Source: a virus
DNA: 35,938 nucleotides
Reading direction: 5' to 3' (one strand)
IMG/VR virus record: IMGVR_UViG_3300005581_000051
Span: 1-35,938 of that record
This document shows, one piece after another, positions 2,894-20,100 of this stretch (position 1 is its first letter; the number at the start of each line of letters is the position of its first letter). Under the pieces are notes generated by a model. The model saw only the letters and a list, made by a program, of their open reading frames with translations, searched no databases and had not been told where the DNA came from. Position numbers and translations under genes: made by a program.

Positions 2894-3573
2894 ACGTTAA
2901 ACTTTTATCATATTCACAACCAACAGAAGAATTTGCTAATTTAGGAGTTGACGATGCGCAAGAACTTATTGCGTACTGCGCCCGTGTTAGCAATCCTAGC
3001 AATCAACTTAATACAGAAACTAGTGAGAAACTAATTAAGTATCTAGTCAAACATCAACACTGGTCGCCACTTGAAATGGTTTCAGCCTGTATTGAAATTA
3101 CTACCACTAGAGATATTGCTAGACAAATTCTTAGACATAGGAGTTTTAGTTTTCAAGAATTTAGCCAACGATATGCGGACCCTACTAAAGATCTTAACTT
3201 TGTCACTAGAGAAGCAAGACTACAAGATCCAAAGAATCGCCAGAACAGTGTTCAAGTAGATGATACAGATTTACAAAACGAATGGTTTCGTGCCCAACAA
3301 AGAGTTATCTATGCCGCAAAAAGAGAGTACGAATGGGCTATTAAAAATGGCATAGCAAAAGAGCAGGCTCGAGCAGTACTACCAGAAGGTCTTATTGAAA
3401 GTCGTTTATATATGAACGGTACTCTACGTAGCTGGATACATTTTATTGAACTACGTAGTGCAAATGGTACACAGAAAGAGCATCAAGAAGTAGCCGTTGC
3501 ATGTGCTAGTGCAATTGCTGCTATCTTTCCAATGGCTACTGATCTAGTTACTCAGGGCGCATTGGCAACTTAA
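2890..3573 (+). CDS. thyX: Flavin-dependent thymidylate synthase ThyX (227 aa)
   Basis: ThyX makes dTMP from dUMP using FAD, NADPH and methylenetetrahydrofolate. It supplies thymidine nucleotides for phage DNA synthesis in the host cytoplasm. The signature RHRx7S is present as RHRSFSFQEFSQR in the first half. It is preceded by a typical helix with YLVKHQHWSPLEMVSACIEI and followed by ARAVLPEGLIESRLYMNGTL, which carries the conserved substrate-side Arg, Met and Asn positions. The length matches the family (about 220-250 aa). The start ATG overlaps the previous stop (ATGA). The gene's last 26 bases overlap the 3' end of the convergent glycosyltransferase gene. T4 itself uses the unrelated ThyA-type enzyme, while ThyX is common in marine T4-like phages. 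Confidence 0.97.
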   Translation: MNVKLLSYSQPTEEFANLGVDDAQELIAYCARVSNPSNQLNTETSEKLIKYLVKHQHWSPLEMVSACIEITTTRDIARQILRHRSFSFQEFSQRYADPTKDLNFVTREARLQDPKNRQNSVQVDDTDLQNEWFRAQQRVIYAAKREYEWAIKNGIAKEQARAVLPEGLIESRLYMNGTLRSWIHFIELRSANGTQKEHQEVAVACASAIAAIFPMATDLVTQGALAT

Positions 3574-4615
3574 CATTAAGTTTAAATTGTTCGTACAACC
3601 AGGACCAGTCATTAATTTTAATTAATGCGTCCTGGTTATTTTTATTCTCAATTCCATACTGCATACCTAACATTGCACCCGGTATTACATATTCTCCAAA
3701 CCGTCTATCTAATCCTTTAGTGGTCCATGCTTGTAATCGTTCAGCAGTCTCATCTTGATTTGTTCGTGCAATCGTACTGCTGGCTAACTTTGCAGCTTCT
3801 CTAAATCCGCTACGCCATGCATTCCACGGACTAGATGCAAATCTATTAACGCTTGCTACTGTAGGAATAATTTTAAGTTTATTACTAAGACTAGTAGTAA
3901 TGTCAACTCCACCTTCTGTTCCACCAAACAACATTTTAGGCAATAGCTTAATAGCACCATTGCCGTACTCTAGATCATTTATTTCATTACGACTATGCCA
4001 AATATGTACTAGATCAAAGTTATAATCTTCTACAAAATAATCAAAGTTAAATGAATCTAGTACTTCATTATCAGCGTCAACTACCCAAAAATAATCTGTT
4101 GTAGATTGTTCAGCACAGGCCTTGTGACTGAGATAGATATTGGCTTCTCCGTATACACGTTTTGCCTGAGGGAATCTCTTACTTAGTATTTGCCAGTTTG
4201 CCCAACTATTGGGCTCATTGTAAGATAGAAAAAATATGTCGTATGTTATATCTTGCAACGTATATTGATTATTATATTTTACACTAGTGAAAAACTCTTG
4301 CGTAGTATCTATTTGCCTATTTTTTGCAATAAGATAGCATTGACATTTTTCGGTATATTGTTGATAGAGTTTAAAAACATGGATGTATTCACTATCCCAT
4401 TTTTTAGGTTCAAATACTAACATGTCATCTAAAAATTCATAACTAGAATCAATGAACCAAAAGAAGTTAGTAAAAACATTTTTCTTAGCTAGTTCAGCTG
4501 TATTAGTTAGCGTAATATCAAATTCTATAAATTTAGCAAATGGAAATTTTTCTGTTAGTAATTTGCCGCGTTCAACTGATAACGGTTTAGAATTATAAAA
4601 TACTAGATCGTACAT
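3548..4615 (-). CDS. Glycosyltransferase-like protein with internally duplicated N-terminal domain (355 aa)
   Basis: The C-terminal two thirds match the neighbouring gene (4615-5529). Shared features are YDIFFLSYNEP near residue 125, AKRVYG, a DxD-type VVDADNEV (D180, D182), YGNGAIKLLPK near 217-227 and SPWNAWRSGFRE near 262-273. The GT-A-like Rossmann start and DxD suggest a metal-dependent nucleotide-sugar transferase, but the sugar and acceptor are unknown. Residues 1-90 repeat the same pattern (YDLVFYNSKP, FPFAKFIEF, FFWFIDSSYEF), with DSS in place of DAD, so the first copy is probably non-catalytic. It starts in a TAATG overlap with the upstream gene and ends overlapping thyX by 26 bases tail to tail. 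It is the last gene of the cassette. Confidence 0.7.
   Translation of the reverse strand: MYDLVFYNSKPLSVERGKLLTEKFPFAKFIEFDITLTNTAELAKKNVFTNFFWFIDSSYEFLDDMLVFEPKKWDSEYIHVFKLYQQYTEKCQCYLIAKNRQIDTTQEFFTSVKYNNQYTLQDITYDIFFLSYNEPNSWANWQILSKRFPQAKRVYGEANIYLSHKACAEQSTTDYFWVVDADNEVLDSFNFDYFVEDYNFDLVHIWHSRNEINDLEYGNGAIKLLPKMLFGGTEGGVDITTSLSNKLKIIPTVASVNRFASSPWNAWRSGFREAAKLASSTIARTNQDETAERLQAWTTKGLDRRFGEYVIPGAMLGMQYGIENKNNQDALIKINDWSWLYEQFKLNVKLPMRPE
3597..3646 (+). terminator. Intrinsic terminator for the thyX run, inside the convergent gene
   Basis: An interrupted inverted repeat forms a 9-bp outer stem (AACCAGGAC 3597-3605 with GTCCTGGTT 3629-3637). It is separated by a 4-by-1 internal loop from a 7-bp inner stem (CATTAAT 3610-3616 with ATTAATG 3621-3627) closed by a 4-base loop. 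On the + strand it is followed at once by ATTTTTATT. No U-run follows in the - strand direction, so it should stop only + strand transcription. It begins 24 bases after the thyX stop and is entirely within coding sequence of the - strand gene. Confidence 0.8.
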
Positions 4616-5529
4616 TATTCTTTATCCAAAAATCCAACACCATTTCTGTATTGCTGTAGGTGTACTGCTTTAAAAAATTTACTAGCATCTGCATCTAAGT
4701 TAGCAATTTCAAGATCAAGTGCGTTTTTTAACTCATTTCCATAGTAAGAAATTTTAGTATCTAAATCAGTTATACTTTCTATTTCTGTTTTCCACATGTT
4801 GGTAAGATACTCAAAGTCTCTAACTTGCACGTAATCCCAATCTGTACAATTAGTCATATAACAACCGTGTCTTGCTCCTAATATAGCCCAGTTACCATTA
4901 ATAGTGTCTTGTCCTATATTAAGCCATACTAGTAATCGTTGTAGATTTTTCCAATGTATTTCTTTCTTAAATTCTTTGTTAGCAGTCTTAACTCCGCGAT
5001 CAAGTGACATCTTTACGCCTTCACGGAATCCAGCTCGCCATGCTTGGAATGGGCTAGCATTATTATAGACATCACTGTAACAACTATTCATCTGTATGTA
5101 TTCTGCATCCCAACAAAAATCTACCTGTGCATTAGGATCGTCAGCGGGTGCGTTTTCATGTGTTTTCATGTCTAGCACATACTGTTTAGGCCACAACTTT
5201 AATCCGCCATTGCCGTACATAAGTCCGTTGACTACGTTGTATCCTGCCCAACTAATAACACACTTTGATAAGTCTTTATGTTCTTCAAAGTTGACTTCTT
5301 GATTAAGAAAGTCTTCACGTACAATGTTATCACCGTCCACTGTGACAAATCTGTCTGTGTCACTTAATCTAGCGCAGGCCTTGTGTGCTTCATCGCTACC
5401 TTTAACGCCATGAACACGTTTTGCCCACGGCACTTTCTTTAGTAAATCTGCATAATTTTTTTCTGCATTTGGTTCGTCGTAACTAAGGTAAATTATATCG
5501 TAATCTAAAATTTTAACTGTTTGTGTCAT
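4615..5529 (-). CDS. Glycosyltransferase-like protein, DGD motif (304 aa)
   Basis: The start is placed at ATG 5529 (MTQTVKILDYDIIYLSYDEP), because homology to the next gene begins there. An upstream in-frame ATG at 5595 would only extend through the end of the preceding gene. Visible blocks: YDIIYLSYDEPNAEKNY (residues 10-26), WAKRVHGVKG (35-44), SDEAHKACARLSDTD (45-59), VTVDGDNIV with DGD at 65-67, YGNGGLKLWPK (105-115) and SPFQAWRAGFRE (159-170). The KRVHGVKG plus DxD pattern is a recurrent marine-phage family usually annotated as glycosyltransferase. The reaction itself is inferred. It overlaps the previous gene by 17 bases and shares one base with the next start. Confidence 0.75.
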   Translation of the reverse strand: MTQTVKILDYDIIYLSYDEPNAEKNYADLLKKVPWAKRVHGVKGSDEAHKACARLSDTDRFVTVDGDNIVREDFLNQEVNFEEHKDLSKCVISWAGYNVVNGLMYGNGGLKLWPKQYVLDMKTHENAPADDPNAQVDFCWDAEYIQMNSCYSDVYNNASPFQAWRAGFREGVKMSLDRGVKTANKEFKKEIHWKNLQRLLVWLNIGQDTINGNWAILGARHGCYMTNCTDWDYVQVRDFEYLTNMWKTEIESITDLDTKISYYGNELKNALDLEIANLDADASKFFKAVHLQQYRNGVGFLDKE

Positions 5530-6142
5530 ATAATATTTGATATCCAACTGTGGAAAAAAATTGTTTAACATATACCGATATGTTAGTAATATCACCTTCT
5601 TTATCTAACTGATAATCTACAAGCTCTCTATCTTTGTTAATTAAATCATTTACAGAAAGTTTAATAGTTCTATAGATAAAATTCATGCTACTATTGTCTA
5701 CTACATAAATCTCAAGACTAGTGTTAAGATTATATTTTAATAAAGACTGTTTTTGATCTGGCCTAATTTGAAACCCCCATTTTTTTAGTAATGGATAATT
5801 TTCAATAGTAAACATGTTGTCCCAATTATCAACTACTGGAACTTTAGTTAAAAATATTCCTGTGCTTGAATCTTCATATATAGATACAATCTTAGGTGTG
5901 TTTTGATCTATAAAAATAATTTTATATTTTGCTAATTGTTTTTTTTCAACTAAAAATTCTCTAATTGTATCATATTCAAATTCAACAAAATTTGAAAAGG
6001 ATAAATTTTCTTCGTTAGTGATAGACAACAAATTTCCGTTATCTTTATCAAAGTACACTCTATATACTAAAGATGTGTTGCTCAATGCTAGTGCTTGTGC
6101 CAACAGTTCTAGAGGAATAATATCTTCTTCAGGATTATACAT
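5513..6142 (-). CDS. Unknown protein within the glycosyltransferase cassette (209 aa)
   Basis: I do not recognise this protein. It is hydrophilic and beta-rich, with no signal peptide, membrane helix or DxD motif in a GT context. Notable stretches are LVYRVYFDKDNGNLLSITNE near residue 25, FVEFEYDTIREFLVEKKQLA near 52, and SLEIYVVDNSSMNFIYRTIK in the second half. The first of these recalls short beta-hairpin segments in phage structural proteins, but the match is weak. Its DNA is strikingly AT-rich even for this genome (for example 12 G+C in the 60 bases from 5941). It overlaps genes on both sides (8 bases upstream, 17 downstream), so it is clearly co-expressed with the transferases. It may be an accessory or acceptor protein, which is a guess from position. 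Confidence 0.6.
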   Translation of the reverse strand: MYNPEEDIIPLELLAQALALSNTSLVYRVYFDKDNGNLLSITNEENLSFSNFVEFEYDTIREFLVEKKQLAKYKIIFIDQNTPKIVSIYEDSSTGIFLTKVPVVDNWDNMFTIENYPLLKKWGFQIRPDQKQSLLKYNLNTSLEIYVVDNSSMNFIYRTIKLSVNDLINKDRELVDYQLDKEGDITNISVYVKQFFSTVGYQILYDTNS

Positions 6143-6959
6143 TTAATTTCTCAATAATTTGATCAGTAAGAAATTGATCTTCAACATAATGTACTACGCC
6201 TGATTGTTTAAAATTATTAAAATATAATTCTCTACGATTGTTAAAATTAATCATCATTTGAGTTAACCACGATACTGGAATAGGATCCCATCCTTGTAAT
6301 GCAGGTTTCATGTGTACAAAAGTAAAAGGAGAATTAGTGTGAACTATTGTATCTTCAATTCCTAATATTTTTGCAGCAATAGCTACAGTAACATCCATGC
6401 TAAAAAATTTCTGCTGTTGTTTAGGAGCATTATCGTAATAAATTCGTTGCCAGTTATTTGTAATGAATTCAACTAGTTTAAAAAATGTTAGGGCAGTTTC
6501 AGATTTTCTAAAATAGAACATTCCACAATATAGATTAGGCAAGTCATTTTCTACAAATGTTTTTCTATATACAGTATCAACAATAGTGCGATCTTTATAA
6601 TCTGCTACACGAGATGTAAAAAATAAATCACGATCATTAACAAATTTCCATGCATGTTCAATGTTATCCAATACTAACATGTCAGCATCAAATACTATAG
6701 TTTCATCATATGGACTTGCATAATATAACTTCCAACGATTTTCAATTTTCCATTCACTAGAGGCAGCAGCATCACCAAACGGTATAGGAATTATTTGATC
6801 AAAAACTGATTGATATTCTTCAGGCACATGATCATTAGTAACAATACTAATATTATTAATTGTTGGCTGAGTAGCCTTAATGCTTAGTGCAAGGGCGTAT
6901 GCTTGACGAACATAATCAACATCGCTATTTTGTGCAATAACTAAGAAGCCCTGTGTCAT
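6135..6959 (-). CDS. Putative GT8-like glycosyltransferase, DAD motif (274 aa)
   Basis: The N-terminus MTQGFLVIAQNSDVDYVRQA is a beta-alpha start typical of GT-A enzymes that bind nucleotide sugars. A central SPYDETIVFDADMLVL block carries the DxD metal and nucleotide-sugar motif (D91, D93). It is followed by a region with LPNLYCGMFYFRKSE, as in GT8-type enzymes where an (F/Y)N(A/S)G-like loop follows. The C-terminal VVHYVEDQFL supplies a late His of the kind that helps bind the metal in GT8 enzymes. Donor and acceptor are unknown. It is a paralogue of the next upstream gene, with which it shares MT-G-L--AQN and PYDET, and overlaps it by four bases (ATGA). Confidence 0.75.
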   Translation of the reverse strand: MTQGFLVIAQNSDVDYVRQAYALALSIKATQPTINNISIVTNDHVPEEYQSVFDQIIPIPFGDAAASSEWKIENRWKLYYASPYDETIVFDADMLVLDNIEHAWKFVNDRDLFFTSRVADYKDRTIVDTVYRKTFVENDLPNLYCGMFYFRKSETALTFFKLVEFITNNWQRIYYDNAPKQQQKFFSMDVTVAIAAKILGIEDTIVHTNSPFTFVHMKPALQGWDPIPVSWLTQMMINFNNRRELYFNNFKQSGVVHYVEDQFLTDQIIEKLNV

Positions 6960-7792
6960 TGTGCTTCCTTGTTTAAGTATCTTGTTAGACTGTATTTGTT
7001 CATAACATGCATGTCTAGATCCTTAGTTTTAGTAGCAATATATTCTCCTGAATAATTTTTCTTTTCAACTAAAAATTTTAACGTAGTATCTTCTATGTCA
7101 ACTAGCACATCTCTATCAAGAGTGTAGTTCATTTTACCAGGTAACGATTTAGCAAAGTCAGTGCCCATCATATGTATTGCGATACTAAACGCAAAATCGT
7201 TTCTAAACACAGTTGAATCAATATTATATAGAGCTCTAAAATAACCCCAATTTTGTTTAACGTGCTTTACAAGATCAAAAAACGCTTGATTTACTTTTGA
7301 CTTTTTAAAGTAAAACGCCGTTGCCCAATAGAAAGGAATAGCATATTGATTTAAGTATCTAAAACTTCTATCATCTCTCCACTGAGCAAGATCAAAACTA
7401 TCTTGGTAGATTAAAAAATCATTAACATTATCCCATATCTTAGCTAGATTAGAACTATTAATAATGTAGTCACTGTCAATAACCAGTGTTTCATCATAGG
7501 GAGTTAGATCATAGCAATCTGATCTATTTAGATTTTTCCACGTTAATGTTTTAGATGCAAGTGTACCATCATAGAATCTTTTTGTCTGCTGTGTGTCGGT
7601 CCAGGTTGTAATAAACTGATCAAACACATCTGCTGCCGTTGGTTGACTTTGTAATAACCAATCTTTACTATCAGTGATTAAACTAACAGGTACATTTAGA
7701 TGTCGTTTAACTTGTTCGGCAGCAAACAATGAGATTTTAGCATAGTCAATTTCACTGTTATTTTGAGCAAAAATTAGAACACCACGAGTCAT
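6956..7792 (-). CDS. Putative GT8-like glycosyltransferase, DSD motif (278 aa)
   Basis: This is a paralogue of the 274-aa transferase. It begins MTRGVLIFAQNNSEIDYAKI, has LTPYDETLVIDSDYI with DSD at 106-108 in the same place as the DAD of its neighbour, and then AIPFYWATAFYFKKSKVNQA where the neighbour has LPNLYCGMFYFRKSE. The C-terminus DLDMHVMNKYSL supplies a late His. No membrane segment is seen, so it should act in the cytoplasm. The two copies have diverged strongly outside the motifs, which suggests different donors or acceptors rather than a recent duplication. It overlaps genes on both sides in ATGA junctions. Confidence 0.75.
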   Translation of the reverse strand: MTRGVLIFAQNNSEIDYAKISLFAAEQVKRHLNVPVSLITDSKDWLLQSQPTAADVFDQFITTWTDTQQTKRFYDGTLASKTLTWKNLNRSDCYDLTPYDETLVIDSDYIINSSNLAKIWDNVNDFLIYQDSFDLAQWRDDRSFRYLNQYAIPFYWATAFYFKKSKVNQAFFDLVKHVKQNWGYFRALYNIDSTVFRNDFAFSIAIHMMGTDFAKSLPGKMNYTLDRDVLVDIEDTTLKFLVEKKNYSGEYIATKTKDLDMHVMNKYSLTRYLNKEAQ

Positions 7793-8136
7793 AGATTTAC
7801 TAGATCTCCAACTCGTCTTTTAGATCTTAAGTCTGCATACTTGGCCAAATATTCATTAGTTGCTTCATTATATACTGACAACATATTATCTAAAAATTCC
7901 TGTAAGTTTGAAACTTTTAAAGGAATACGGTTGTCATCTAATAGAATTGATTCTGTATTTCCAAGCTCAGTTAATGTATGCACAAAAACAATCAACTCTC
8001 TAGACACAGTAAAACTAGATCCTTGAAAATAATAAATGAGACTTTGGTTGTATTCTTCCAAGGCAGTCTTTCTAAGATTGCCAAGTGTAGCCATGTAATT
8101 GGCTGTTTGAAATGCTTTTTCTAATCGTTCGTCCAC
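7789..8136 (-). CDS. Small conserved protein, first gene of the glycosyltransferase cassette (115 aa)
   Basis: The start is GTG at 8136, supported by GGAGGT at 8141-8146 and by a sigma70-type promoter just upstream. The protein is mostly helical: LEKAFQTANYMATLGNLRKT, LEEYNQSLIYYFQGSSFTVS, RELIVFVHTLTELGNTES, then FLDNMLSVYNEATNEYLAKY and a basic end LRSKRRVGDLVNL. The middle (SFTVSRELIVFVHTLTELG, then SILLDDNRIPLKVSNLQEF) resembles a conserved small protein I have seen in marine T4-like phages, with no known function. As the promoter-proximal gene, it might be regulatory or a partner for the transferases. It overlaps the next gene by four bases. Confidence 0.7.
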   Translation of the reverse strand: MDERLEKAFQTANYMATLGNLRKTALEEYNQSLIYYFQGSSFTVSRELIVFVHTLTELGNTESILLDDNRIPLKVSNLQEFLDNMLSVYNEATNEYLAKYADLRSKRRVGDLVNL

Positions 8137-8140
8137 AGAG

Positions 8141-8146
8141 ACCTCC
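8141..8146 (-). promoter_or_regulatory. Shine-Dalgarno GGAGGT for the GTG-started 115-aa gene
   Basis: GGAGGT lies four bases before GTG 8136. It decides this start, since no ATG is available nearby. Confidence 0.7.
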
Positions 8147-8150
8147 AGAG

Positions 8151-8175
8151 TAACTACTATACAATATAGTAGTTA
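8151..8175. repeat. Perfect 10-bp inverted repeat over the -10 region (candidate operator)
   Basis: TAACTACTAT (8151-8160) and ATAGTAGTTA (8166-8175) are exact inverted copies around a 5-base centre. The element covers the -10 box, part of the spacer and the bases up to the predicted start. No U-run follows on either strand, so a terminator role is unlikely. From the promoter above it would not be transcribed, which favours a protein-binding site. It could form a hairpin in read-through RNA from the upstream tail genes. Confidence 0.6.
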
Positions 8176-8184
8176 TCTTGTCAA
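8156..8184 (-). promoter_or_regulatory. Near-consensus sigma70 promoter for the glycosyltransferase cassette
   Basis: On the - strand TTGACA (8184-8179, perfect -35) is followed after exactly 17 bases by TATAGT (8161-8156, five of six matches to TATAAT). The predicted start is near 8149, leaving a leader of about 13 bases that contains GGAGGT and then GTG. It lies in one of the largest gaps in the window (8137-8208). This is a host-type vegetative promoter, unlike the TAAATA-type motifs before tail genes. Confidence 0.75.
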
Positions 8185-8208
8185 GAGGTATGGGTATTGC
8201 CGTCCTGA

Positions 8209-9111
8209 TTAGGCAGCAGTTGGTGTTAATACAGAAACATTTGTGCCGCTTGGGCGATACATTGCAACCACTGTGTTTAGTGTTGGTTGTACATCTTCGT
8301 CAAAGTTTGGATCGCCTGCATCATTATCGCGGTATTCCATTGTAAGAATTAATTGTGTGCCATCAGCAGATTTTCTAGCATACGCATAGTATCTGTTCTC
8401 AGCATATGATCCTGCAGGTGCTGCCTTTTCACCAATTAATTGATTGCTAGTATTTAGATCTTCCCAGCCGATTGAATAACTAGTTGCTGATGACCCTGTG
8501 TATGTTGTAGCAGTATAGTTCATAACAAATTCACCCATTTGAGTGAACATTGTGTTCCAGTCATTGTTCTTACTAGTGCCAGTAGTTATGTTTGCACTAA
8601 TTCTTATTTTGCCGCCTGCATTAAAGAAATAACGCATATTAGCTGCAGATCCATTTCCGCCTGTGTTACCAGTAATAGTAACAGTATGAGTCAATGTTGA
8701 ATTCCAAGTAGATGATTGTGTCCTAGTGAGCAATCCTTCTGTTGAGAATTGTCCGCCAGCACTATCTGTATCAATAGAGTACTTGTTAGTGTTAAGAGTA
8801 GTAGCAAATGTGCTATATTGAGATCTAAATGCTTCCGTGATTGCTGCTCCGCTGGCTGGGACCACTAAATTTCTACCGTCTGTTGCTGTAGTTGATCCAA
8901 CTGCAGAACCAACTTGGTGTTGTCTTGCTTTTACCATGTCAGTGCGCAGATTAAGCCACTGCAGTGCGGTGATTTGATTACCAGCGGATACATCAGCTGA
9001 AGCTAAAGTCTGGCCATACCCGCTAGTGCCTGTACCCATCACAGTATCTACAACAGCTCTAATACTGTTATAGTCTGTTGCTTGAATTAATTGTCCAACA
9101 CCTGCTGCCAT
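8209..9111 (-). CDS. Putative virion structural/fibre-associated protein (300 aa)
   Basis: The start at 9111 has TAAGGAAAG just upstream, overlapping the stop of the preceding fibre gene. The N-terminal region (AAGVGQLIQATDYNSIRAVV, then GTGTSGYGQTL and ALQWLNLRTDMVKARQHQ) has the helix-turn pattern of small marine-phage virion proteins. Residues from about 80 onward are Thr/Ser/Gly/Asn-rich and beta-predicted (THTVTITGNTGGNGSAANMR, FVMNYTATTYTGSSATSYSI), as in phage fibre tips or decoration domains. No enzymatic motif or collagen repeat is seen. Position at the end of the fibre operon suggests a distal fibre or adhesin component, which is an inference. Confidence 0.65.
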   Translation of the reverse strand: MAAGVGQLIQATDYNSIRAVVDTVMGTGTSGYGQTLASADVSAGNQITALQWLNLRTDMVKARQHQVGSAVGSTTATDGRNLVVPASGAAITEAFRSQYSTFATTLNTNKYSIDTDSAGGQFSTEGLLTRTQSSTWNSTLTHTVTITGNTGGNGSAANMRYFFNAGGKIRISANITTGTSKNNDWNTMFTQMGEFVMNYTATTYTGSSATSYSIGWEDLNTSNQLIGEKAAPAGSYAENRYYAYARKSADGTQLILTMEYRDNDAGDPNFDEDVQPTLNTVVAMYRPSGTNVSVLTPTAA

Positions 9112-9120
9112 TTTCTTTCC

Positions 9121-10257
9121 TTACAATATAATTGCTTCTATTAACTTTACACTGGTATCGTTACTAGATTCTAAAGCAATAGCAAATACATCAGTTGAAT
9201 GATGGACTCCTACGCTAGCACACCCGTCGTTTGCTGCGATAAGATTGTCACCTTTTTTCACTGCGCCAATTACTTTAACTGGTACACGACCTTTTAGTGC
9301 AACATAAGTGCCGCCTTCTAATTCACTGTTCATCATGTAAGCAGGGTTTGTACTTACTGCACCAATTGCACGTTTGCCCCATGAGCTAGCAGTTACTTCT
9401 TTGTCACCGCCTATTACCATAACAGTACCCGGTGAGTATTCTGCATCAGCAAGATACTTTTCTGCTAAGTCAGCAAATCTAGCTGTAGTAGCAGTACCTT
9501 GAAATACATTTGCATAAAGGTCGCCGCTTGCATCTCTTGCAGCAACAGTGTTTATAGTTGCTAGTGTAGTAGCAAGTCTGTATGTGCCTTGTACTAGTAA
9601 TTCATCAGTTTGTAATGCATTACTAGCAGTTCCCCAGAATGTGTGAGCAGTCGACGTAACTCCTGTTGAATCTGTACCTGTTAATGTAAGACCTTTTTTA
9701 ATGTCGCTAAATCCTAAAATAGGATTAATACCATCATCAAGTGTAAATTCATCTGCAGAAATTACATATAAAGGTTCATCATTAATAATAGCTTCAATAA
9801 TAGCATGAGATACACCTAGATCGTCTGTTACTGATCTAGAACGCATCTGTGTGGTACCAATGCCGCCGGCAGTTTGCGGGCCGATTAATACATATCCGGT
9901 TGACGGTTTTTTAACATAAAGTTGATTATTATCAGTATCAAACCAAAAGTCACCTGTTGTTAATCCTACAGGTTCATCGCCACCAATTTCTGCGCCGCCT
10001 GTAGATCGAAATCTACTACCGTCATAGAATTTTAGTTTACTCTGAGTCGAATCAAACCAAATTTGGCCGCTAATTGGACGAGGGGGTTGACTTCCGCCAG
10101 AGAAGCTTTCCAACAAATGTAGGAAATTCTCGTTTTGTACTTCACCGTAACCAGCGTAATTTTTGCCGATTAGCTTAATATCAAATGTACTATTAATTGT
10201 ACCATCTTCTACTACTACTGGTGTTGTACCACTATATCTATCAATACTATATGGCAT
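9121..10257 (-). CDS. Tail fibre protein, paralogue 1 of 3 (378 aa)
   Basis: The N-terminal module is shared with the next two genes: IKLIGKNYAGYGEVQNENFL, LLESFSGGSQPPRPISGQIW, FDSTQSKLKFYDGSRFR, then GDFWFDTDNNQLYV. This is probably the part that attaches to the baseplate or trimerises. A middle segment (TAHTFWGTASNALQ) is also shared with the 714-aa paralogue. The C-terminal domain from about residue 265 (EYSPGTVMVIGGDKEVT, STNPAYMMNSELEGGTYVAL, KGRVPVKVIGAVKKGDNLIA) is a known kind of phage fibre C-terminus and differs from its paralogues. It has its own TAAATA-type promoter candidate and an AAGGGG ribosome site upstream. Confidence 0.8.
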   Translation of the reverse strand: MPYSIDRYSGTTPVVVEDGTINSTFDIKLIGKNYAGYGEVQNENFLHLLESFSGGSQPPRPISGQIWFDSTQSKLKFYDGSRFRSTGGAEIGGDEPVGLTTGDFWFDTDNNQLYVKKPSTGYVLIGPQTAGGIGTTQMRSRSVTDDLGVSHAIIEAIINDEPLYVISADEFTLDDGINPILGFSDIKKGLTLTGTDSTGVTSTAHTFWGTASNALQTDELLVQGTYRLATTLATINTVAARDASGDLYANVFQGTATTARFADLAEKYLADAEYSPGTVMVIGGDKEVTASSWGKRAIGAVSTNPAYMMNSELEGGTYVALKGRVPVKVIGAVKKGDNLIAANDGCASVGVHHSTDVFAIALESSNDTSVKLIEAIIL

Positions 10258-10280
10258 TTAGTTCTACCCCTTAACTTTAT

Positions 10281-10288
10281 GTATTTAG
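10281..10288 (-). promoter_or_regulatory. Candidate late promoter CTAAATAC before fibre gene 1
   Basis: The octamer CTAAATAC on the - strand lies 23 bases before the ATG at 10257, in a 39-base gap. It matches the T4 late -10 TATAAATA at the TAAATA core and is identical to the octamer before gp6. AAGGGGTAG follows as ribosome site. Similar octamers occur by chance inside genes, so position is the main support. Confidence 0.45.
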
Positions 10289-10296
10289 TTTCAAAA

Positions 10297-11319
10297 TCAA
10301 TTTAAATCAACCCATGCTCCTGCTGCATAAGCCTGGATTTTATCAGTTGTTGTATTATAAATTAGCTCGCCGTTATTTGCACTAGTCATTACTCTAAGAT
10401 CACGGGCACTTGTTGTGTATTTTGGCAGCTGGAGTTGAGTCGTGGCCCTAACTCCTCCTGCAACATCTAATGTATATTCCGGCGTATTAGTTAATATTCC
10501 TACTTTAGCATTTCCAAAATTACTAGTAATTGCCAATGTGCTTACATTTGTTGCTATTTCAAAATTCTGATTTGGTCCCAACAATAACGGTAGATTGTTT
10601 GCAATTGCTACTGTGCCGGATGTGCTAGTATCACCACCAGTACTCATAAAATCAGTATAGTCTAGAGTCGCTCCACTAAGTCCTGTTATTGTGTCTGCTT
10701 TACTAGCAGTAACATTAAACTTCATTCCAGAAAGTGTACTAGCATTAAATCCTGGCTTAATTGTGCCTGTAAAATTAGTTATAGCAGTCTTTGGTGTAAA
10801 TTCTATTGTACTACTACTAAAAATTCCTAACAGTTGACCTTGCGCCCATAATTCAACAATTACTCGTAGTGCATTGTTTGTATCATATAATGATACAACT
10901 TCAAATCCAGACTTTTGTTGACTGTCGCCCCATATTTTACTTGCTTCATATCTGTTGTTTGCAGATGAATAAAAATACAAACGCTTTTCTGTACTGTCAA
11001 TCCACAGATCACCTTGTGCTACAATACTAGGAGCAGTAGGTTGCACGATAGGACCGCTTCCTATTCTAAACCCGTTGCCGTCATATACTTTTAATCTGCT
11101 GGTTGCAGTGTCATACCAAATCTGACCAGTTACTGGATTATTAGGAGCTGAAGTATTTGCAAAGTTTTCTAATAGTTTTATTAAATTTTCATTAAAAAAT
11201 TCACCGTAACCGGCAACGTTCTTACCAATAAGTGTTAGGTCTGTGGCTGTTTGGTCAACAGTACTGTCAACAATTTCTGTTAGCAAGGTTCCATCTGTTT
11301 TATTAATTTTATAAGTCAT
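10297..11319 (-). CDS. Tail fibre protein, paralogue 2 of 3 (340 aa)
   Basis: The N-terminal module matches its neighbours: LTLIGKNVAGYGEFFNENLI, LLENFANTSAPNNPVTGQIW, YDTATSRLKVYDGNGFR, then GDLWIDSTEKRLYFYSS. The middle is Thr/Ser-rich and beta-predicted. The C-terminus (NTPEYTLDVAGGVRATTQLQ, then NGELIYNTTTDKIQAYAAGA, ending WVDLN) is the repeat type common before fibre tips. No S74 chaperone domain follows, so this fibre either ends in a short tip or depends on a partner. The start ATG shares a base with the upstream stop (TAATG), and TAGGAT supplies a ribosome site. Confidence 0.8.
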   Translation of the reverse strand: MTYKINKTDGTLLTEIVDSTVDQTATDLTLIGKNVAGYGEFFNENLIKLLENFANTSAPNNPVTGQIWYDTATSRLKVYDGNGFRIGSGPIVQPTAPSIVAQGDLWIDSTEKRLYFYSSANNRYEASKIWGDSQQKSGFEVVSLYDTNNALRVIVELWAQGQLLGIFSSSTIEFTPKTAITNFTGTIKPGFNASTLSGMKFNVTASKADTITGLSGATLDYTDFMSTGGDTSTSGTVAIANNLPLLLGPNQNFEIATNVSTLAITSNFGNAKVGILTNTPEYTLDVAGGVRATTQLQLPKYTTSARDLRVMTSANNGELIYNTTTDKIQAYAAGAWVDLN

Positions 11320-13463
11320 TATACAATCCTACCAGTATAAATTATGTAGTTTATTGTTAAGTAAGGATTCATAATATTCAAAGGTAGATCAGTAGTTGTT
11401 GAATCTACGCTGCCGCTGTTTACCATAAACTTACTGTACCCAGTTTGTAATTGTACTGAACGGCCAACCGCTTCAGAGTCTGCAATTGATCCAGGATCTG
11501 TTGAATCAGTGACTGAGTAAAACTGGGTGCCGGTATCTCCGGTAAAGTTGTGAACGTGATCAGGAAGGTTTGTAATATTAATTGATTGTTCTTCATTACC
11601 GTTTGATAACCCTACAGTATCCGCTGATACTGCAGTAACTCTGTTAGCTACTGGTCCAGGGATTCCGTCTTTATCTAACGTAGTTGTTCCTGATGTTGCG
11701 CCAGATGGTAATAAAGGAACTGATATACCATTATTCATATTATCAGCACCAATGGCCATCCTACCTCTTAGATCAGGCAATCTAAATGTTGCAATACCTA
11801 CTAATGGTACTAACCCATTATAACTGGTGCCTATGGTTGCAAACAGTTCGGGGTATGAACTAATTGATACCTCTGCACCGTCACATAATAGGTAACCATT
11901 GGGTAATGTTGTTCCTGCAAATGACACAAGAGATCCAATAGGCACTGTCGCTACTGTAGATAGGAACGTTGTTTTTGTTATTTTTCTTAGGCCAGTTAAT
12001 GGTCTGTTTACTAGCAGTTCATCTGTAGAAAGAAAATCAAGCAATTCAATCTTATTACCAATAACGTCTGAACTTAATGCAGTTGTAAAAATTGCAGTGC
12101 CGCCAACTTGCTGACCGTCAAAACTAATTGTGTTAGTACTAATAACGTCGCCAGTTAAAGAAAAATCTGTAGAGCTAACTAGTCGAGTTGCTGTTCCTGT
12201 AACTGAACCATTAAATGCACCGTTAAAAGATCCAGTAAAAATTGTACTAAGGTCTGGATTGCCAATGTTATTAGCATAAATTGTGTTGTAACGTAACAAA
12301 TTAGTACCAATATTATGTACATTGTTTGCTACTGGAGTGATAGAATTTGAAGTTAGTGTGCCAGTAATATGAGCGCCGGTGCCTACACGCAGAGTTTTTG
12401 CAATACTTGCGCCACCTGCAGTTTTAATACTGCCATTACTTAAGGTTGTACTATCTGTTGTGCTGGTAACAATTATATCATTACTAACTTGTAGTTTACC
12501 ATTAATATCTAATGCTTCTGCAGGATTTGTTTTGTTTATACCTACGCTTGTTCCGGTGACTGTCAACACATCACTAGAAGTTCCTGCTTGATTAACTCTA
12601 ATGAATATACTAGAACCTTCAATTTTATTAGTTAAAACTGTAGCACCATTTAATGTGTTAGTTAGTGTAGTATTAAGATCGGCACCTACAATTAATCCGG
12701 CATTGTTTTTAATAGTAAGACCGTAGTCAGTAGTACTTGCAACATCACCTCTAAGGAAATTATTTGCATCAAGACCATCAGCATACCCTGATACTACAAG
12801 TTTTGTTGCACGATCAGCTGTTCCCCAAAACTTGTTAAGTACAATTCCATTAAGATCAAAGTCTTTAGTTGACATGTTAACACCTTGATTGATTACTGAA
12901 AATCCATCAATTGTTATTTTTGGTGTAAATGTATCTTTACTAATAATTGCAACAACTTCACCAGCAATGATAAAGTTTAATATAATGCGTGGTAAGTTTG
13001 CTGTATCATAAATTGACTCTACTTTAGGTCCTGACTGCGTTCCTTCACTAAATTGAGGTCCGACTAGTAACCAGTTAGATCCTGACCATAAGTATAATTG
13101 TTGATTACTTGTGTCGACCCATAGATCTCCAATGACTGCTGTTGTGGGACGGGCAATACTTTTTGTTACATTGCCTGCAGCTACCCATTTAGTACTATCC
13201 CAAACTTTTAATTGTGGTTGAGGTGGGCTCGAAGTAGTACCAGTGTCATACCATAGTTGTCCTAATACCGGTTTTGTTGGACGATCAATGAAAGAACTAG
13301 CAAAATTTTCTAGTAAATGTAGAAAATTTTCTCCAATTGCTTGGGCATATCCTGGAAGATTCTTCCCTACAAAACTTAAATCAGTTGTTTGATTTAAGTC
13401 TAAGTCGTTAACTGTAATACTTCCGTTGTTAGGTTGGTCAAAATGGTCAATTTGATATGGCAT
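11319..13463 (-). CDS. Tail fibre protein with C-terminal phage collar domain, paralogue 3 of 3 (714 aa)
   Basis: It has the shared N-terminal module (LSFVGKNLPGYAQAIGENFL, LLENFASSFIDRPTKPVLGQ, LWYDTG, then GDLWVDTSNQQLYLWSG). A long beta-rich Thr/Asn/Gly shaft follows, with pieces such as VGINKTNPAEALDINGKLQV. Near residues 505-575 there is a phage tail collar domain (VPIGSLVSFAGTTLPNGYLL, CDGAEVSISSYPELFATIGT, FRLPDLRGRMAIGAD), with the usual C-terminal partner strand (NPYLTINYIIYTG). Collar domains form the receptor-binding end in T4 short tail fibres, so this is the best candidate short-fibre or adhesin of the set. It overlaps both neighbours in TAATG junctions. Confidence 0.88.
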   Translation of the reverse strand: MPYQIDHFDQPNNGSITVNDLDLNQTTDLSFVGKNLPGYAQAIGENFLHLLENFASSFIDRPTKPVLGQLWYDTGTTSSPPQPQLKVWDSTKWVAAGNVTKSIARPTTAVIGDLWVDTSNQQLYLWSGSNWLLVGPQFSEGTQSGPKVESIYDTANLPRIILNFIIAGEVVAIISKDTFTPKITIDGFSVINQGVNMSTKDFDLNGIVLNKFWGTADRATKLVVSGYADGLDANNFLRGDVASTTDYGLTIKNNAGLIVGADLNTTLTNTLNGATVLTNKIEGSSIFIRVNQAGTSSDVLTVTGTSVGINKTNPAEALDINGKLQVSNDIIVTSTTDSTTLSNGSIKTAGGASIAKTLRVGTGAHITGTLTSNSITPVANNVHNIGTNLLRYNTIYANNIGNPDLSTIFTGSFNGAFNGSVTGTATRLVSSTDFSLTGDVISTNTISFDGQQVGGTAIFTTALSSDVIGNKIELLDFLSTDELLVNRPLTGLRKITKTTFLSTVATVPIGSLVSFAGTTLPNGYLLCDGAEVSISSYPELFATIGTSYNGLVPLVGIATFRLPDLRGRMAIGADNMNNGISVPLLPSGATSGTTTLDKDGIPGPVANRVTAVSADTVGLSNGNEEQSINITNLPDHVHNFTGDTGTQFYSVTDSTDPGSIADSEAVGRSVQLQTGYSKFMVNSGSVDSTTTDLPLNIMNPYLTINYIIYTGRIV

Positions 13464-14074
13464 TATGCTACCTCACTAAGGCCAGTTAAACTCTGAATAC
13501 GCACTGTGTAATCAACTTGAATTAATCTATTTAGAGACTTTTGTACTGGATGAAAGATTACATGAGTTAATAGTCGGCCAGTGCCATCTGTAGCATAAGA
13601 TTTTAATCCTAATTCATCAAATACATATGTACCATCAGCACTAGTAGCATTATCAAATGCTTCTTGCCTGCTGGGCTCGCCGTAGTCCAATAAACAAGTG
13701 ATAAACACATCGGTATAATTTGTACCGGTTACGTGTCTAGTTTCAATTTTATTGCGAATAGGATCAGTGTTTACACTGGCACGGTCATCTACCACTTTAG
13801 AATAAGTTTCATTGTATAAACTTGCACTAGTTCCTGTGCTATTAGGTGTAAGATAGGTAATAATGCCCGTAGGATCTATAGTAGTTCCTCCGTTACCAAA
13901 TGCCATCTCATAGATGAATCCCTGTCCTGCATTAGCAATACTTTCTGCTAATGAGATGCTCATGTTTTCGTAGTGGATAGCATTGCGCTTATTAATAAAC
14001 ACTTCACCAGTTTCTGGATTGTGAATTTTAATATGCCCTTCAATGTGTATTCCTGATAAGTCTTTACCTTGCAT
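13463..14074 (-). CDS. Conserved virion structural protein, baseplate/fibre region (203 aa)
   Basis: The sequence IHIEGHIKIHNPETGEVFIN, KRNAIHYENMSISLAESIAN, GFIYEMAFGNGGTTIDPTGI, then ETYSKVVDD, is a conserved marine T4-like virion protein pattern. The T4 counterpart is not obvious to me. It has no membrane segment or enzyme motif and is predicted mainly beta. Its place between the giant wedge/fibre protein and the fibre set suggests an adaptor that holds fibres on the baseplate, as T4 gp9 or gp10 do, but I infer this from position only. It is preceded by a terminator-like hairpin and a TAAATA motif, so it probably opens the fibre transcript. Its stop overlaps the next start (TAATG), and GAGGT ahead of that start supports coupling. 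Confidence 0.7.
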   Translation of the reverse strand: MQGKDLSGIHIEGHIKIHNPETGEVFINKRNAIHYENMSISLAESIANAGQGFIYEMAFGNGGTTIDPTGIITYLTPNSTGTSASLYNETYSKVVDDRASVNTDPIRNKIETRHVTGTNYTDVFITCLLDYGEPSRQEAFDNATSADGTYVFDELGLKSYATDGTGRLLTHVIFHPVQKSLNRLIQVDYTVRIQSLTGLSEVA

Positions 14075-14144: not shown

Positions 14145-17100
14145 TTAGTCATTTTGATTATTAGACAGCGTGTACTGATATTTATCTGTCAAATATTCTG
14201 GAAATATTGCCTCTGAATTTTTAATAAAATTAGCAATCTCACTGTTAGAGTTATGTAGATCAGTTTCGCCCCACTGGGTGCCTGTCTTTTTAATCACTAC
14301 AATTCGTGTGTCTGCTGCTGCCTGATCTGTTAAACTAATACCACTGGCAACTCCATTTACTGAGAACTCAGCAGTAAAGTTAGAGTCGCCTTCCGGGCTG
14401 TAAGGATAGCCGTTTGACTCTTCAAATAACGTATAGTCTACTTTCTTTAATTTATATCCGCCTACAAATACGTCAATTTCATTTACACTAGTTGGTATAT
14501 ATCGTAATGCTACATTAGATGTACTACCATTGCTTATAGAAGTTTCAATAACATGAGTGTCAGCATACGGAATAGTTTCTGTTGGTCCAATGTCTAACAC
14601 TAATGTGTGCTCTAAATGTACATTAGGTGCTCCTGTACCTAATGTAGCACGGCGTAATTGCCCTAAAGTATTGCCTACTTTCGTAAAATACTCAATACGC
14701 TCGCCATTAATTTCAATAATGCCAGGCAAATTCAATACAGGATTAGGTGAGCTTAGTTTTGATCCGTCGACTAGTAGAATTTCTGCATCTTTCTGCAGTA
14801 AATCTCTAGCTAATCGTGTAGACTTAGCTTTAGAAATTCTCTTATAGTGTGTGCGATTTAATATATCTTTAAACTGCATGTAACCATAACTAGATTTAAT
14901 ATGTTGGTCACTAAAACAAACTATGTCTAAATAATCTGTAGTTTCCATAGGAGCTGCTAATTTCACTGTAACATGATCTGCATCTAAATAATAGTCAACG
15001 CTATGTGTTAAAATTTTACCATTCTTAATAACCCAAACGTAATCGTCAGTAACAACTGATCTACTTAATTTAAATTTACCGCCAACTAAGTGTTTAGCTC
15101 TAAAATAATCGTATGTTCCGCTAACTAATGACCCGCTTAGACTAGTATACTCTGTTTCACGTTGAATAGCTTCAACAGAATGATTGTAAAAAGATATTAC
15201 TTCTACAGTGCCCGTTGGTGGAGTTGTAAAATTTATTTGATTACCATTTATTGTATAGTTTTCATATGCTAACTTAGCTACAGTTAAGGTTGCTCCTTCT
15301 ACATATGCTTCTGCTCTTAGATTAATTGTAACTCCAGAGTAATCAATTACATAACCAGATCCATATGTTAACTGGGCTCCGTTTACAAAGATTGCAAAAT
15401 CTGTAGGTGTTGGAACATAAGGAGGTGACTTATAGGCAGCTAATGTATAATCTAATGTATTATTTTCTAAAACAAAATATTCATTTACAGTTGTTCTATA
15501 TATAAAATTTCCAGCACTTACTAAAACATTATTTGCATATGGTTCGGTAGTGCCTATTGGATTTGCTAGTGTAAAGGTGTCTAGCACACCATCTGTTGGC
15601 AGTGTTTCAATTTTAATAATAGATGCTGTTTGATTTTCATCAGCAGTTATCATATAAGTGATTAATTCGTTAACAGGTCGAGCTGCTGCAAATCTAATAC
15701 CAACTTTATCTAATGATGCGTATGCGTCTGTAGTCTGAAATAGCTCGTAATCAACAGCTAGCCCGTCAACTAACACTACTGATCCTATTCCTTCAATCCA
15801 CGGCGCATTAGTTACGTACTCTAATGTTGCGCCATCTGATATAAAATAGTCAGAATCTAATAATGATTCACTGGCTACACTAAATGTAATTACACTTAAA
15901 ATTTCTTTATCTGCAGGCGGTGGTGCTGTTAATAGAGTAACTGTACTATCTTGCCAGTTTACTGTGTAATCGATACCTTGTCTCAGAATATTACTATCCA
16001 CCTTAACAAATATAGATGCAAGATTGCCAGGAATTTGACCCATGTTAAATTCATTTGTTGCTCCATCACAGATAAAATTCTTAAACATTATCTTAGCAGA
16101 ACCAGCAGTTGGTAACTGATAAACTTTAATTGCTACAGCATCTGAAATATGTCCTGGAACAATTTCTTCAGGAGCAGCACTGGTCAACGGAGTAACTAAG
16201 CCAGACCCTTCTAAAATAATGTCATCAGGTGCTATACCTGTTGCAGATGTCAGTGCTGTTCCTTCAAATGCTCCGCCACTTAACTGCGTATCGTACTCAT
16301 TCTCAAGCGGAGTATAACTGCCATCGCTGGTACTCTTACGGAAGATAACTTTGTCATTTACATTAATTGTTAAATTTAAGTTAGGTAAAGTAAAGACCTG
16401 TGTGGTGCCATCACCGATAATTGGCGTCATTACTACATATGGCTTACCTGGCATCGGGTACGTTACAAACTCAGAATCGTCAATTCTTTGTCCGTTTACA
16501 TACACGTTTATTTCTTCTCCGTCTGTAGGAGAATAATCTAAATCGTATGTATATTGTGATGCACCTGCTGAAAAGATTTTATCATCAAATGTAGCATCAA
16601 ACGATTCCCATGCGTCTGGCGCAATGTCTTCTCCGTTTGTGCCTACCATCCAACCGCCTCTAACATTAAATCCTAATCCAGTTATCTGTGTACCACCGTA
16701 ATCAATACCTGTCATTAACTGCGCAAGGTCTTTACCGTACATACCACTAGTTGGGTTGTAATAAAAATTAATTCTATCAGTTGCTGATAAGTGATTAAAA
16801 TTCTTAGTGTACGTAACACTAACAATTTCGCCTTGAGCAGGAGCGGTTTCTAATATTAACACTCCGTAATAACTAGTAAATCCTCTACTAGCAGTTGTTT
16901 TAGTCTGCAGAGTATATTCGTTTCTTAACACATCAATGTTATTAACTGTTACAGAACTTGTACTACGATCTCCATTAGGACTAAATTTTAAAACAAATTG
17001 CAATTGTGAACCAGTTCCAGTAAATGTTTCTGTTTCTTCAAGCTCAGTAACTACATATGTTCTTGAAATTCTATCAAATTTAATTGCAATTTTATTAGAT

Positions 17101-20100
17101 CTAACTACTTCGCTTTCAATTACCACTGCTGCACGGGCAGCAACGCCATTAACTGATAGTCCACCATCTATTATAATTGTTGGTGCTTTAAGATAACCTG
17201 TACCTTTTGATATTAATACAAGTCTATTAACACGACCATTAGCAATATAGGCTTTAGCTGTTGCGCCTGTCCCGTACCCGCCTTCAATTCTAACAACTGG
17301 ATTACTTATATATCCAGAGCCACCGTCAACAAGTGCAATGCTTTGTACAGTGAAGCCAACATGATCGTACCAATGTTTCCATGGATACGATGTAATTTCT
17401 GGTGAAGATGTTTCAATTTCACCTGTAGAAGAAACTGTCACAGTCACTGGTGCAACTTCAAATTTAGAATTGATAGTTGGAATTAAATCAAAATCAGTAA
17501 CTGAACTTTGTGAATATTCTATTCCAGTGTATGAACTTACATACTCACGAATTTGTGTCTTATAAGGCTTAACCTCTTTGATATAATCTTCAAAATTTTC
17601 TAAATTGTCATTGTTATACGTTACTTTCTGAGATAAGTTTCCTACATTGTGAGTTGCTTTTACAAAACTAGTTTTAAATGCCCAGTCAATAAAAGTTTGT
17701 TCATGTAGTGCATATCTTAAAGATGCAAAGAATAACTTCAAATATTCAACTTTAAATTCGTCAATAAGAATTTTATTTTTAATTGTATCAATAATTATTT
17801 TTAATTCAATGGTTGCTAGATCGTCATATTGTGCTGAATCAAATAACACACTATCGTATCCTATAGCCGAATAGTTGTAGAGGTTGCTAGAGAACTGTAT
17901 CGTTCCGTTTTCACGGCCAACAACAGAATAGTTTTGCGTATAATCAATAGTGGCTATATTATTATATTTTTCTAGTAGCAGCCAGCCGCCTGATCCAATA
18001 TTTTTAACTCGTACAATACTACCGACATTAGATTCTAATAGTGCCAATTGATATGTGTTGTCTACTAGATGATCAATTTTTGTAAATTGATTATATCCTG
18101 TAGCATACCAGTCCATGTAGTCCCAATATTTTGTTACATCAAAGGCTTGTCCTTTTTCTCTATCCCAAATTAATTCTGTACTATTCCATGTATAAGTAGT
18201 CCACTTATCAAAAGTGTTAGAGTCGCTTAATACCAGTACAGCAAACGGACGAACTGTAAATGTAGTGTTGGGCTGGTAGCCTTCTCCCTTATTGATTATT
18301 TCAACTCCCGTCACTTGACCAGCCGCATTTATTTTGGTTTTAACTACTGCGTTCTTACCGGTTGAAGAAATAATTACATATGGAGCATTAACGTAGCCGC
18401 GACCTGCTGACACAATGTCTGCTCCAATAATTCTACCATTTTCAATAACTGGCGTTAAGCGGGCTTGTTCTAATGTTGCTACTCCCACAAAACGTAATTC
18501 AGCATTAGTGTCAATTGTTATATCCCACTGGCCAGTTACTGTACTAGGAGGAGAATTATAACCTTCTAGATCAGTTAAGTCGTAGTCATCAACAATTAAA
18601 TTTGTAGCTAAAACTGCATTAACACGTTCAATGTATTGTTTTAGTGCTTCCACACGATTGATAAACATACTTTGACGAGGTCTAAAATTAATACCATATT
18701 GTTGCTTAAATGGTAATTTAATATCAGGTACTAGTCTATCGTTTTCATCTTTACCAACTAGACTATGAATCCATTTATTTTCAAGCTCAACAGGAAGTAT
18801 AGTATTAGGATGCTCACTAATTATCTTCCACTGGCTGTGTGCGTTGGTGCCTATATAATCTAACGACACTGTCCAATATTGAACTGTTAAATTAAAATCA
18901 GTACTGTCTATTAGACCAGTAACATTTACTAGACTAAAAGAGTCAGCACCTGTTAGTGCAAGACATGAGTATCCTTCTGAGATAGGATCAGAAATTAATT
19001 TAGAAACATTGTATGCTGACAGTGATCTTCCAATAACATTAGGAGCAACAGTTGGATTCTTTACCCAATAGTAATAGGTATTTTGGAATGTTTTAGATAC
19101 TGCATCATATCTCTTTTTAACGCTGTATACCGCATCGCCATAACGACTAGTTCCGCTTATACCTAAAGAGTTTCCTTTATCGGTAGGCGATAACTTGTCC
19201 CACTCCGAAGGTAAGTATTTTGTTTCTACCCATTCGTAAATATCAATGCTAGCAGTATCATATAAAGTATTCCATGTAGTTGATCGGTAAACAACTCCGC
19301 CTGCACGATTGTCTAAAAATCTAGCACGGGTCAAATCCCACCATAACATGCCAACTTGATCTTTAGTCCAATTCATTCCGTCATCAACATTAACTGTACT
19401 ATTACCTACAGAATAAGTAGCTGGGTCAAAATATGTTTTATAACTAATTTCTTGATCAGCAGGTCCTGGAATCTTTCCTTGGCTTGCATCTACTACGTCT
19501 ATGTAAGACGTTAAAACATTTTTAGTTCTATTATAAATAAATGCTTTTTTAATTTTATAAACATCAGGTCTACTAGTTTCTGTATATTCTGCAATCCACG
19601 ATCTAGCAGTTAGCGGTCTTGTATAAGCGTATACTGAACCTTGACGATCATAAGTTAATGAATCTTCTGGAGCACTAATTAGAATATAATCGGTAGCTAT
19701 TGCTATAGATGTTCCATATAGATCGATGCTAGTAGAATCAGAAGTAAGACTTTCGCCAAATATAAATTTAGTAGCGTATCTATCAAATATATCAACTCTA
19801 CCAGAGTCTACTTGATAATCAACAATTCTTAATGTGTTATTATCAAACGTAGTTAAGCCACCTTCGATGAATGTTGTTAATTTTTCAATGTCACCGCTAG
19901 CTGAAAATATTACTAACGACTCATCGGTGTTCATAAAATTAACAGTGTATCCAAATTTTGCATTGAGTTCTTTTTTACTACTAACTATTGTTTGATGCAG
20001 ATTAAAATTATCAGCTACATCGAATACAAAAACTTTTCCAGCATCTACACTATCGGCATCTGTAAATGGAGCACCAACTGCTAGGTACTTTCCGTTTGTA

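Follow-up and report, generated by a model that had tools for sequence, protein, structure and literature searches.

Host recognition clusters of pelagimyophages are described as combining fibers (PMC7029224), GT8 enzymes and radical S-adenosylmethionine (SAM) genes, and mycobacteriophages encoding glycosyltransferases (GTs) carry glycans on virion proteins, according to work cited in PMC12619734. In phage T4, the ribosome-binding site of e, soc, 49 and I-TevI is hidden in long transcripts, with a promoter placed around the 5' arm of the hiding structure (PMC3014915). Here, we analyzed a six-gene cassette on the minus strand (positions 3548-8136) of the IMG/VR virus record IMGVR_UViG_3300005581_000051, a 35.9-kb stretch of DNA (35,938 nt) that we refer to in its whole length as the window. 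Our results suggest that this cassette would be the constant enzymatic core of a fiber-linked modification island, in which two GT8-like and two GT-A-like glycosyltransferases, the latter of a KRVHG type, may build a short glycan with two small helper proteins. The cassette is preceded by a sigma70-type promoter embedded in a predicted RNA hairpin, an arrangement that may set the timing of the enzymes apart from that of the fibers.

Results and Discussion

A fixed gene core follows the fiber genes

Relatives of the cassette were collected by scanning IMG/VR, which gave >140 locus entries. Since some of these are overlapping pieces of one contig, counts were made on distinct proteins or leaders where possible; the long relatives may be incomplete, so that absences in them are weak. 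Gene content, synteny, and conservation of the promoter and hairpin were all computed, together with a GT-like fold for one protein and a GT8 profile match for another.

All six open reading frames are present in the window, and all five of their junctions overlap, i.e., by ATGA at 7792-7789 (U115/G278) and 6959-6956 (G278/G274), by 8 nt at 6142-6135 (G274/U209), by 17 nt at 5529-5513 (U209/K326), and by TAATG at 4617-4613 (K326/K355), as expected for the single transcription unit proposed in the initial annotation. The U209/K326 overlap assumes that K326 starts at the ATG at 5529 (304 aa), as alignment with relatives indicates, and not at the listed GTG at 5595 (326 aa), which would extend the overlap to 83 nt. 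Five of the genes, U115, G278, G274, U209 and K326, form a core that was found in all locus entries spanning it, and the cassette genes occur together in every relative examined. A U209-type gene lies between G274 and K326 in 143/143 checkable entries (93 by BLAST and 50 by profile at E below 1e-3). The cassette had also been placed just behind a fiber operon, and this position holds across the lineage: a fiber homolog lies ≤4 kb upstream of U115, on the same strand, in each of the 65 distinct relatives with ≥4 kb of upstream sequence. Because four-fold degenerate sites are saturated in every gene compared among relatives, purifying selection and not recent transfer lies behind the amino acid conservation; recent transfer is thereby also ruled out as the cause of the high conservation of K326, the most conserved cassette protein. 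The initial annotation contained neither this universal core nor the hairpin in which the promoter lies, nor the arrays of radical SAM genes by which the operon is lengthened in relatives.

The gp6-type baseplate protein of the window has its nearest matches in jumbo phages (35% identity), with Phosso, Atu_ph07, Vibrio 2.275.O, Serratia BF and Erwinia phages as the nearest cultured relatives, and contigs of 357 and 364 kb are among the relatives bearing the cassette. The window lineage thus belongs, as judged from sequence, to T4-derived jumbo phages that are uncultured, aquatic, and represented almost only in metagenomes. When seven cassette-family proteins (four from the window and three diverged) were used in tblastn searches against isolate phages, no match was obtained; fiber and baseplate queries did match isolate phages, which shows that the search works. 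Bacterial and archaeal genomes contained the G274 family on only two contigs of one marine metagenome-assembled genome assigned to Neomarinimicrobiota (PBPT01000082.1 and PBPT01000016.1), which are probably misbinned phage sequence.

The cassette promoter lies within a predicted hairpin

The promoter before U115, with a predicted transcription start at about 8149, is the sole 11/12 match in 12 kb. Because promoter-like matches in the window are no commoner than in shuffles (42 vs. 47.9), the window alone is insufficient proof of a promoter. A chance match, possible on the window alone, is ruled out by recurrence: TTGACA-17-TATAGT precedes U115 in 49/71 distinct relatives and any given fiber gene at most once. 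Conversely, the late motif ATAAATA was found in 0/67 U115 leaders, compared with 44/69 leaders of the 378-aa fiber gene, and it is also present in 10/19 leaders of the gene at 13463-14074. The original reading of a near-consensus sigma70 promoter in place of a late-type motif is supported by the relatives. Promoter and RNA-structure counts share phylogeny and do not represent independent events. The 364-kb relative contains the strict pattern 30 times, against once in a reversed control, and several of these sites precede small genes close to one end of the record. The pattern looks like an early or middle promoter class of these phages, the timing being presumed.

Two further sets of sites were observed in relatives. 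Tandem small genes in L218 and L219 (G001:356300-364554) carry TTGACA-17-TATAnT promoters with the -10 box placed within a strong hairpin, either in its loop or in an arm, and look like an early region with promoter/terminator overlap. At L170, L174 and L188, promoter-like sites have a G+C-rich hairpin filling the spacer between the -35 and -10 boxes; those in L170 and L174 are near the operon convergent to the cassette.

We then considered the structure of the RNA itself, for which folding is predicted throughout. Read-through RNA from the fiber genes folds at -22.5 kcal/mol (z -3.5), and its outer stem engages the Shine-Dalgarno sequence of U115; RNA begun at the cassette promoter is predicted to be without the hairpin. 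Over 60 relatives, the U115 leader had a mean z of -3.0, compared with about 0 at seven other gene starts, and the Shine-Dalgarno sequence of U115 was the least accessible of ten gene starts (unpaired 0.21 vs. 0.38-0.68). Compensatory changes were found in 5/13 consensus pairs, in an alignment that is short and has some pairs broken. A U-run follows the hairpin in L112, L123, L127 and L136, so that it may also be a terminator there. Other promoters of the same class lie over hairpins (z below -2) in 28% of cases, compared with 7% at random sites. Given a promoter within a hairpin that pairs the ribosome-binding site, read-through from the fiber genes should be silenced or terminated, which argues against a cassette expressed only with late genes.

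As far as regulation is concerned, the palindrome may alternatively be a protein-binding operator and not an RNA element, with a phage repressor or activator setting the timing. The perfect 11-nt inverted repeat does sit on the core promoter, and many promoters of this class in relatives are overlapped by palindromes. However, the arm sequences vary freely among relatives, while pairing, including that with the Shine-Dalgarno sequence, is kept, and a terminator-like hairpin with a U-run occupies the same spot in the four loci named above; we regard the operator as unlikely. In the mechanism that we propose instead, the cassette would be transcribed from its own sigma70-type promoter, and the hairpin would be formed solely by RNA reading in from the late fiber genes, where it would hide the ribosome-binding site or, where a U-run follows, end transcription. 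The cassette would thereby be expressed before and apart from the fibers.

Four cassette proteins resemble glycosyltransferases

Four of the six proteins had been annotated as glycosyltransferases, and the evidence for each differs: K326 is modeled as GT-A-like and G274 has a profile match, while K355 and G278 rest on paralogy. In alignments of relatives, the DxD motif is fully or almost fully invariant in each of the four families. The G274 profile matches glycogenin (E 3e-5) over the N-terminal nucleotide-binding half, including the DxD, and its C-terminal half is not covered by this match. G278, in which D106 and D108 are invariant, is a paralog of G274 (28% identity, E 4e-14; hhalign E 7e-30); its own profile had no match in the PDB, and its GT8 likeness comes only via this paralogy. 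Both results agree with the earlier description of the pair. Since the Pfam Glyco_transf_8 gathering threshold was not reached, with one weak match (E 0.055) among 37 members, we call G274 and G278 "GT8-like" and do not file them as GT8; no cassette protein reaches any Pfam threshold.

K326 and K355 had been paired as KRVHG/DxD proteins. They are indeed paralogs (31% identity, E 4e-28; hhalign E 3e-43) that keep the DxD, both aspartates being invariant in K326 (D67-x-D69) and in K355 (DAD), but KRVHG is literal only in K326, and K355 has KRVYG. No sequence relation was detectable between this pair and the G274/G278 pair, and searches with K326, K355, U209 and U115 gave no Pfam, PHROG or NCBIfam match over a curated threshold or at a significant E-value. 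The predicted structure of K326 (mean predicted local distance difference test score 89.8) is GT-A-like, with the DxD at a strand end, so that the fold speaks for the proposed function. SunS, RmlT and cellulose synthase head its PDB matches, which also include TarP, K4CP, PGANT9A and WrtF as well as the GT-A-like nucleotidyltransferases RmlA, HddC and IspDF; among viral proteins, uncharacterized phage proteins (E 1e-13) come first, followed by annotated glycosyltransferases. Matches of K326 to ammonium transporters were weak and local, and were set aside. With moderate certainty, drawn from sequence comparison and the structural model, we consider all four proteins to be glycosyltransferases. 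The KRVHG proteins would then represent a conserved GT-A-like phage family that Pfam does not list and that is unmatched in 50,697 records of isolate phages.

The two smaller proteins remain, as annotated, without an assigned function. U115 is modeled as a long helix, beta hairpin, helix, beta hairpin and long helix, a fold that weakly and inconclusively resembles DUF4376 proteins; the predicted structure gives no support to U115 as a recognition element for ribosomally synthesized and post-translationally modified peptides (RiPPs). A profile search with U209 against solved structures gave no match.

These folds bear on the suggestion that the cassette glycosylates phage DNA as a protection against restriction. 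Clusters of phage GTs are able to hypermodify DNA (according to studies cited in PMC12619734), early expression would fit, and thyX adjoins the cassette, K355 and the convergent thyX overlapping tail-to-tail by 26 nt. Yet, of the 54 distinct relatives in which 7 kb of sequence is available downstream, just 23 share the convergent thyX of the window, and 30 carry radical SAM genes; PF00303 (the thymidylate synthase/hydroxymethylase type) occurs in only 2/12 of the longer, possibly incomplete relatives, away from the cassette, which itself sits among structural genes. T4 DNA glucosyltransferases, moreover, have the GT-B fold, not the GT-A-like and GT8-like folds predicted here. DNA is accordingly the least probable target, and a very improbable one.

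Radical SAM genes extend the island in relatives

Radical SAM genes follow K326 in about half of the relatives. L079 has six in a row (L079:9918-17682), and four of its proteins match N_Twi_rSAM NF033640 at 305-362 bits (NCBIfam cut-off 170 bits), a cut-off exceeded in about 8-9 records of our tally (9/14). The distance from the cassette is at most about 23 kb for all 13 radical SAM matches of the 357-kb record, and at most about 10 kb for all four of the 364-kb record. Records G002 and G003 were observed to have up to 13-14 N-twitch radical SAM matches per genome, clustered downstream of the cassette.

Such arrays, with their weak similarity to RiPP maturases, raise the question of whether the GTs, the helpers and, in relatives, the radical SAM enzymes make or mature a RiPP-like peptide or small molecule unrelated to fibers or cell surface, the more so as SunS, the best PDB fold match of K326, is a peptide S-glycosyltransferase. 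However, we recognized no precursor peptide gene, the similarity to SunS is at superfamily level only, the window clade has no radical SAM genes beside the cassette, and the linkage to fibers is strict. A RiPP-like product thus appears improbable.

In the cultured Sinorhizobium phage Phosso (L226:16999-24742) and Agrobacterium phage Atu_ph07 (L227:14811-21549), the fiber gene is directly followed by a cupin/JmjC gene and radical SAM genes. This is the same slot, behind related fiber and giant structural genes, and it likewise holds several radical SAM genes, but a cupin/JmjC gene takes the place of the GT core, and the G274 family has no match anywhere in either genome. Enzymes of the cupin/JmjC and SPASM-type radical SAM classes often have proteins or peptides as substrates, and their presence in this slot therefore favors a protein target. 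A wider version of this idea, to which we give a rather low probability, is a protein-maturation island not described before, in which members of the new GT-A family would act jointly with arrays of N-twitch radical SAM enzymes, and in cultured relatives with cupin/JmjC proteins, in the post-translational modification of receptor-binding fibers, the promoter-in-hairpin uncoupling their expression from fiber synthesis. Since radical SAM genes adjoin the fibers in cultured Atu_ph07 and Phosso, the question is within experimental reach.

Fibers or host surface as the possible target

The initial annotation left fibers, phage DNA and host surface as possible targets of a glycan system. The GT-like folds and the constant company of fibers are in line with such a system; no positive evidence emerged for DNA. 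Our tentative preference, held at somewhat less than even confidence, is that the cassette modifies virion fibers, which we favor slightly over the host surface because the partner enzymes often act on proteins and the fiber linkage is strict; early-type expression fits both. The acceptor would be the fiber protein from the adjacent genes, decorated by enzymes present before fiber synthesis. If so, these abundant aquatic phages would change receptor-binding proteins chemically as well as in sequence, a way to host range that has been little explored.

Several observations weigh against fibers as the acceptor. Adjacency to fiber genes does not identify a substrate, and host-recognition islands also collect genes that possibly alter the host surface. 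GT8 enzymes often build the core of lipopolysaccharide. No glycosylation motif was identified in the fibers, solved structures resemble K326 only distantly (E 9e-4, template modeling score about 0.3), and the lack of radical SAM genes beside the cassette in the window and its clade counts here as well. An early promoter with a block on late read-through fits a change of the host surface at least as well. The cassette may act early in infection on host lipopolysaccharide or another surface glycan, so as to keep out superinfecting phages or to stop progeny from sticking to debris. In addition to the promoter and read-through block, the GT8-like content is in keeping with this, soluble GT8-like enzymes would work on the cytoplasmic face so that no flippase is needed, and GT8 glycosyltransferases of the pelagimyophage cluster have been interpreted as altering the host O-chain (PMC7029224). 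Conversely, Pfam recognizes neither a membrane-anchored GT nor a flippase, a polymerase or a gene for sugar-nucleotide synthesis in the cassette, enzymes of the cupin/JmjC and radical SAM kinds are untypical partners in surface conversion, and the strict attachment to fibers would mean no more than a shared island. A host-surface target is a serious possibility, with perhaps one chance in three.

Features of the window

The features discussed above are collected in Table 1. Elsewhere in the window, 107-829 encodes a VWA/metallopeptidase-like protein (DUF2201) on the same strand as thyX and convergent to the cassette, and 726-1376 a 216-aa protein of no known family, with homologs inside the cassette island in distant relatives. 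A single open reading frame of 4399 aa at 14145-27344, a virion structural protein (phrog_10938), takes up 37% of the window; a scan of the window for TATAAATA gave one site only, within this giant structural gene and on the other strand.

Table 1. Coordinates of the cassette, its promoter region and the adjoining fiber genes in the window
Feature	Position	Strand	Description
U115	7789-8136	-	115 aa; leads the unit; without a Pfam or NCBIfam family
G278	6956-7792	-	278 aa; GT8-like paralog; DSD
G274	6135-6959	-	274 aa; GT8-like; DAD
U209	5513-6142	-	209 aa; no assigned function; fast evolving
K326	4615-5529 (listed 4615-5595)	-	KRVHG family; GT-A-like
K355	3548-4615	-	355 aa; K326 paralog with extra N-terminal region
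Sigma70-type promoter	8156-8184	-	TTGACA 8184-8179, 17-nt spacer, TATAGT 8161-8156
Perfect inverted repeat	8151-8175	-	TAACTACTATA-TTG/CAA-TATAGTAGTTA; 11-nt arms over spacer and -10 box
Outer stem	8142-8189	-	ACCUC (8189-8185) pairs with Shine-Dalgarno GGAGG (8146-8142) in read-through RNA
Fiber genes (714, 340, 378, 300 aa)	8209-13463	-	Tail fiber/collar PHROGs; constant upstream neighbors

Comparison with known systems

The island resembles the pelagimyophage/cyanomyophage cluster (PMC7029224), likewise a variable island that lies behind the gene of a very large baseplate protein and holds fibers, GT8 and radical SAM. In our lineage, too, a very large structural protein is followed by fibers, GT8-like enzymes and radical SAM genes, the last in relatives only, so this kind of island is already known. 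It differs from the pelagimyophage cluster in its fixed syntenic core, its own promoter-in-hairpin and its jumbo lineage, and the text of that study considered here does not name the KRVHG family. The fixed core, the new GT-like family and the promoter-in-hairpin switch are the elements for which we found no description. With the GT8 family (glycogenin, lipopolysaccharide GT8 enzymes), the cassette shares an N-terminal nucleotide-binding profile match with a DxD, but its proteins fall under the Glyco_transf_8 threshold and the C-terminal half is unmatched. The mycobacteriophages with glycosylated virions are unrelated, and their glycans are reported to be on capsid and tail tube, not on fibers.

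Closest in regulation are T4 e and soc, in which the promoter likewise lies within a hairpin that conceals the ribosome-binding site and leaves only short transcripts to be translated, as is predicted here. An occluded Shine-Dalgarno sequence in the long transcript is thus shared by prediction, whereas the embedded promoter of the cassette is not late-type. T4 silences early read-through and relies on a late promoter, whereas the cassette would rely on a sigma70-type promoter and silence late read-through. The promoter-in-hairpin offers a rule, precise and testable, by which enzyme timing would be kept apart from fiber timing and which mirrors the T4 lysozyme switch.

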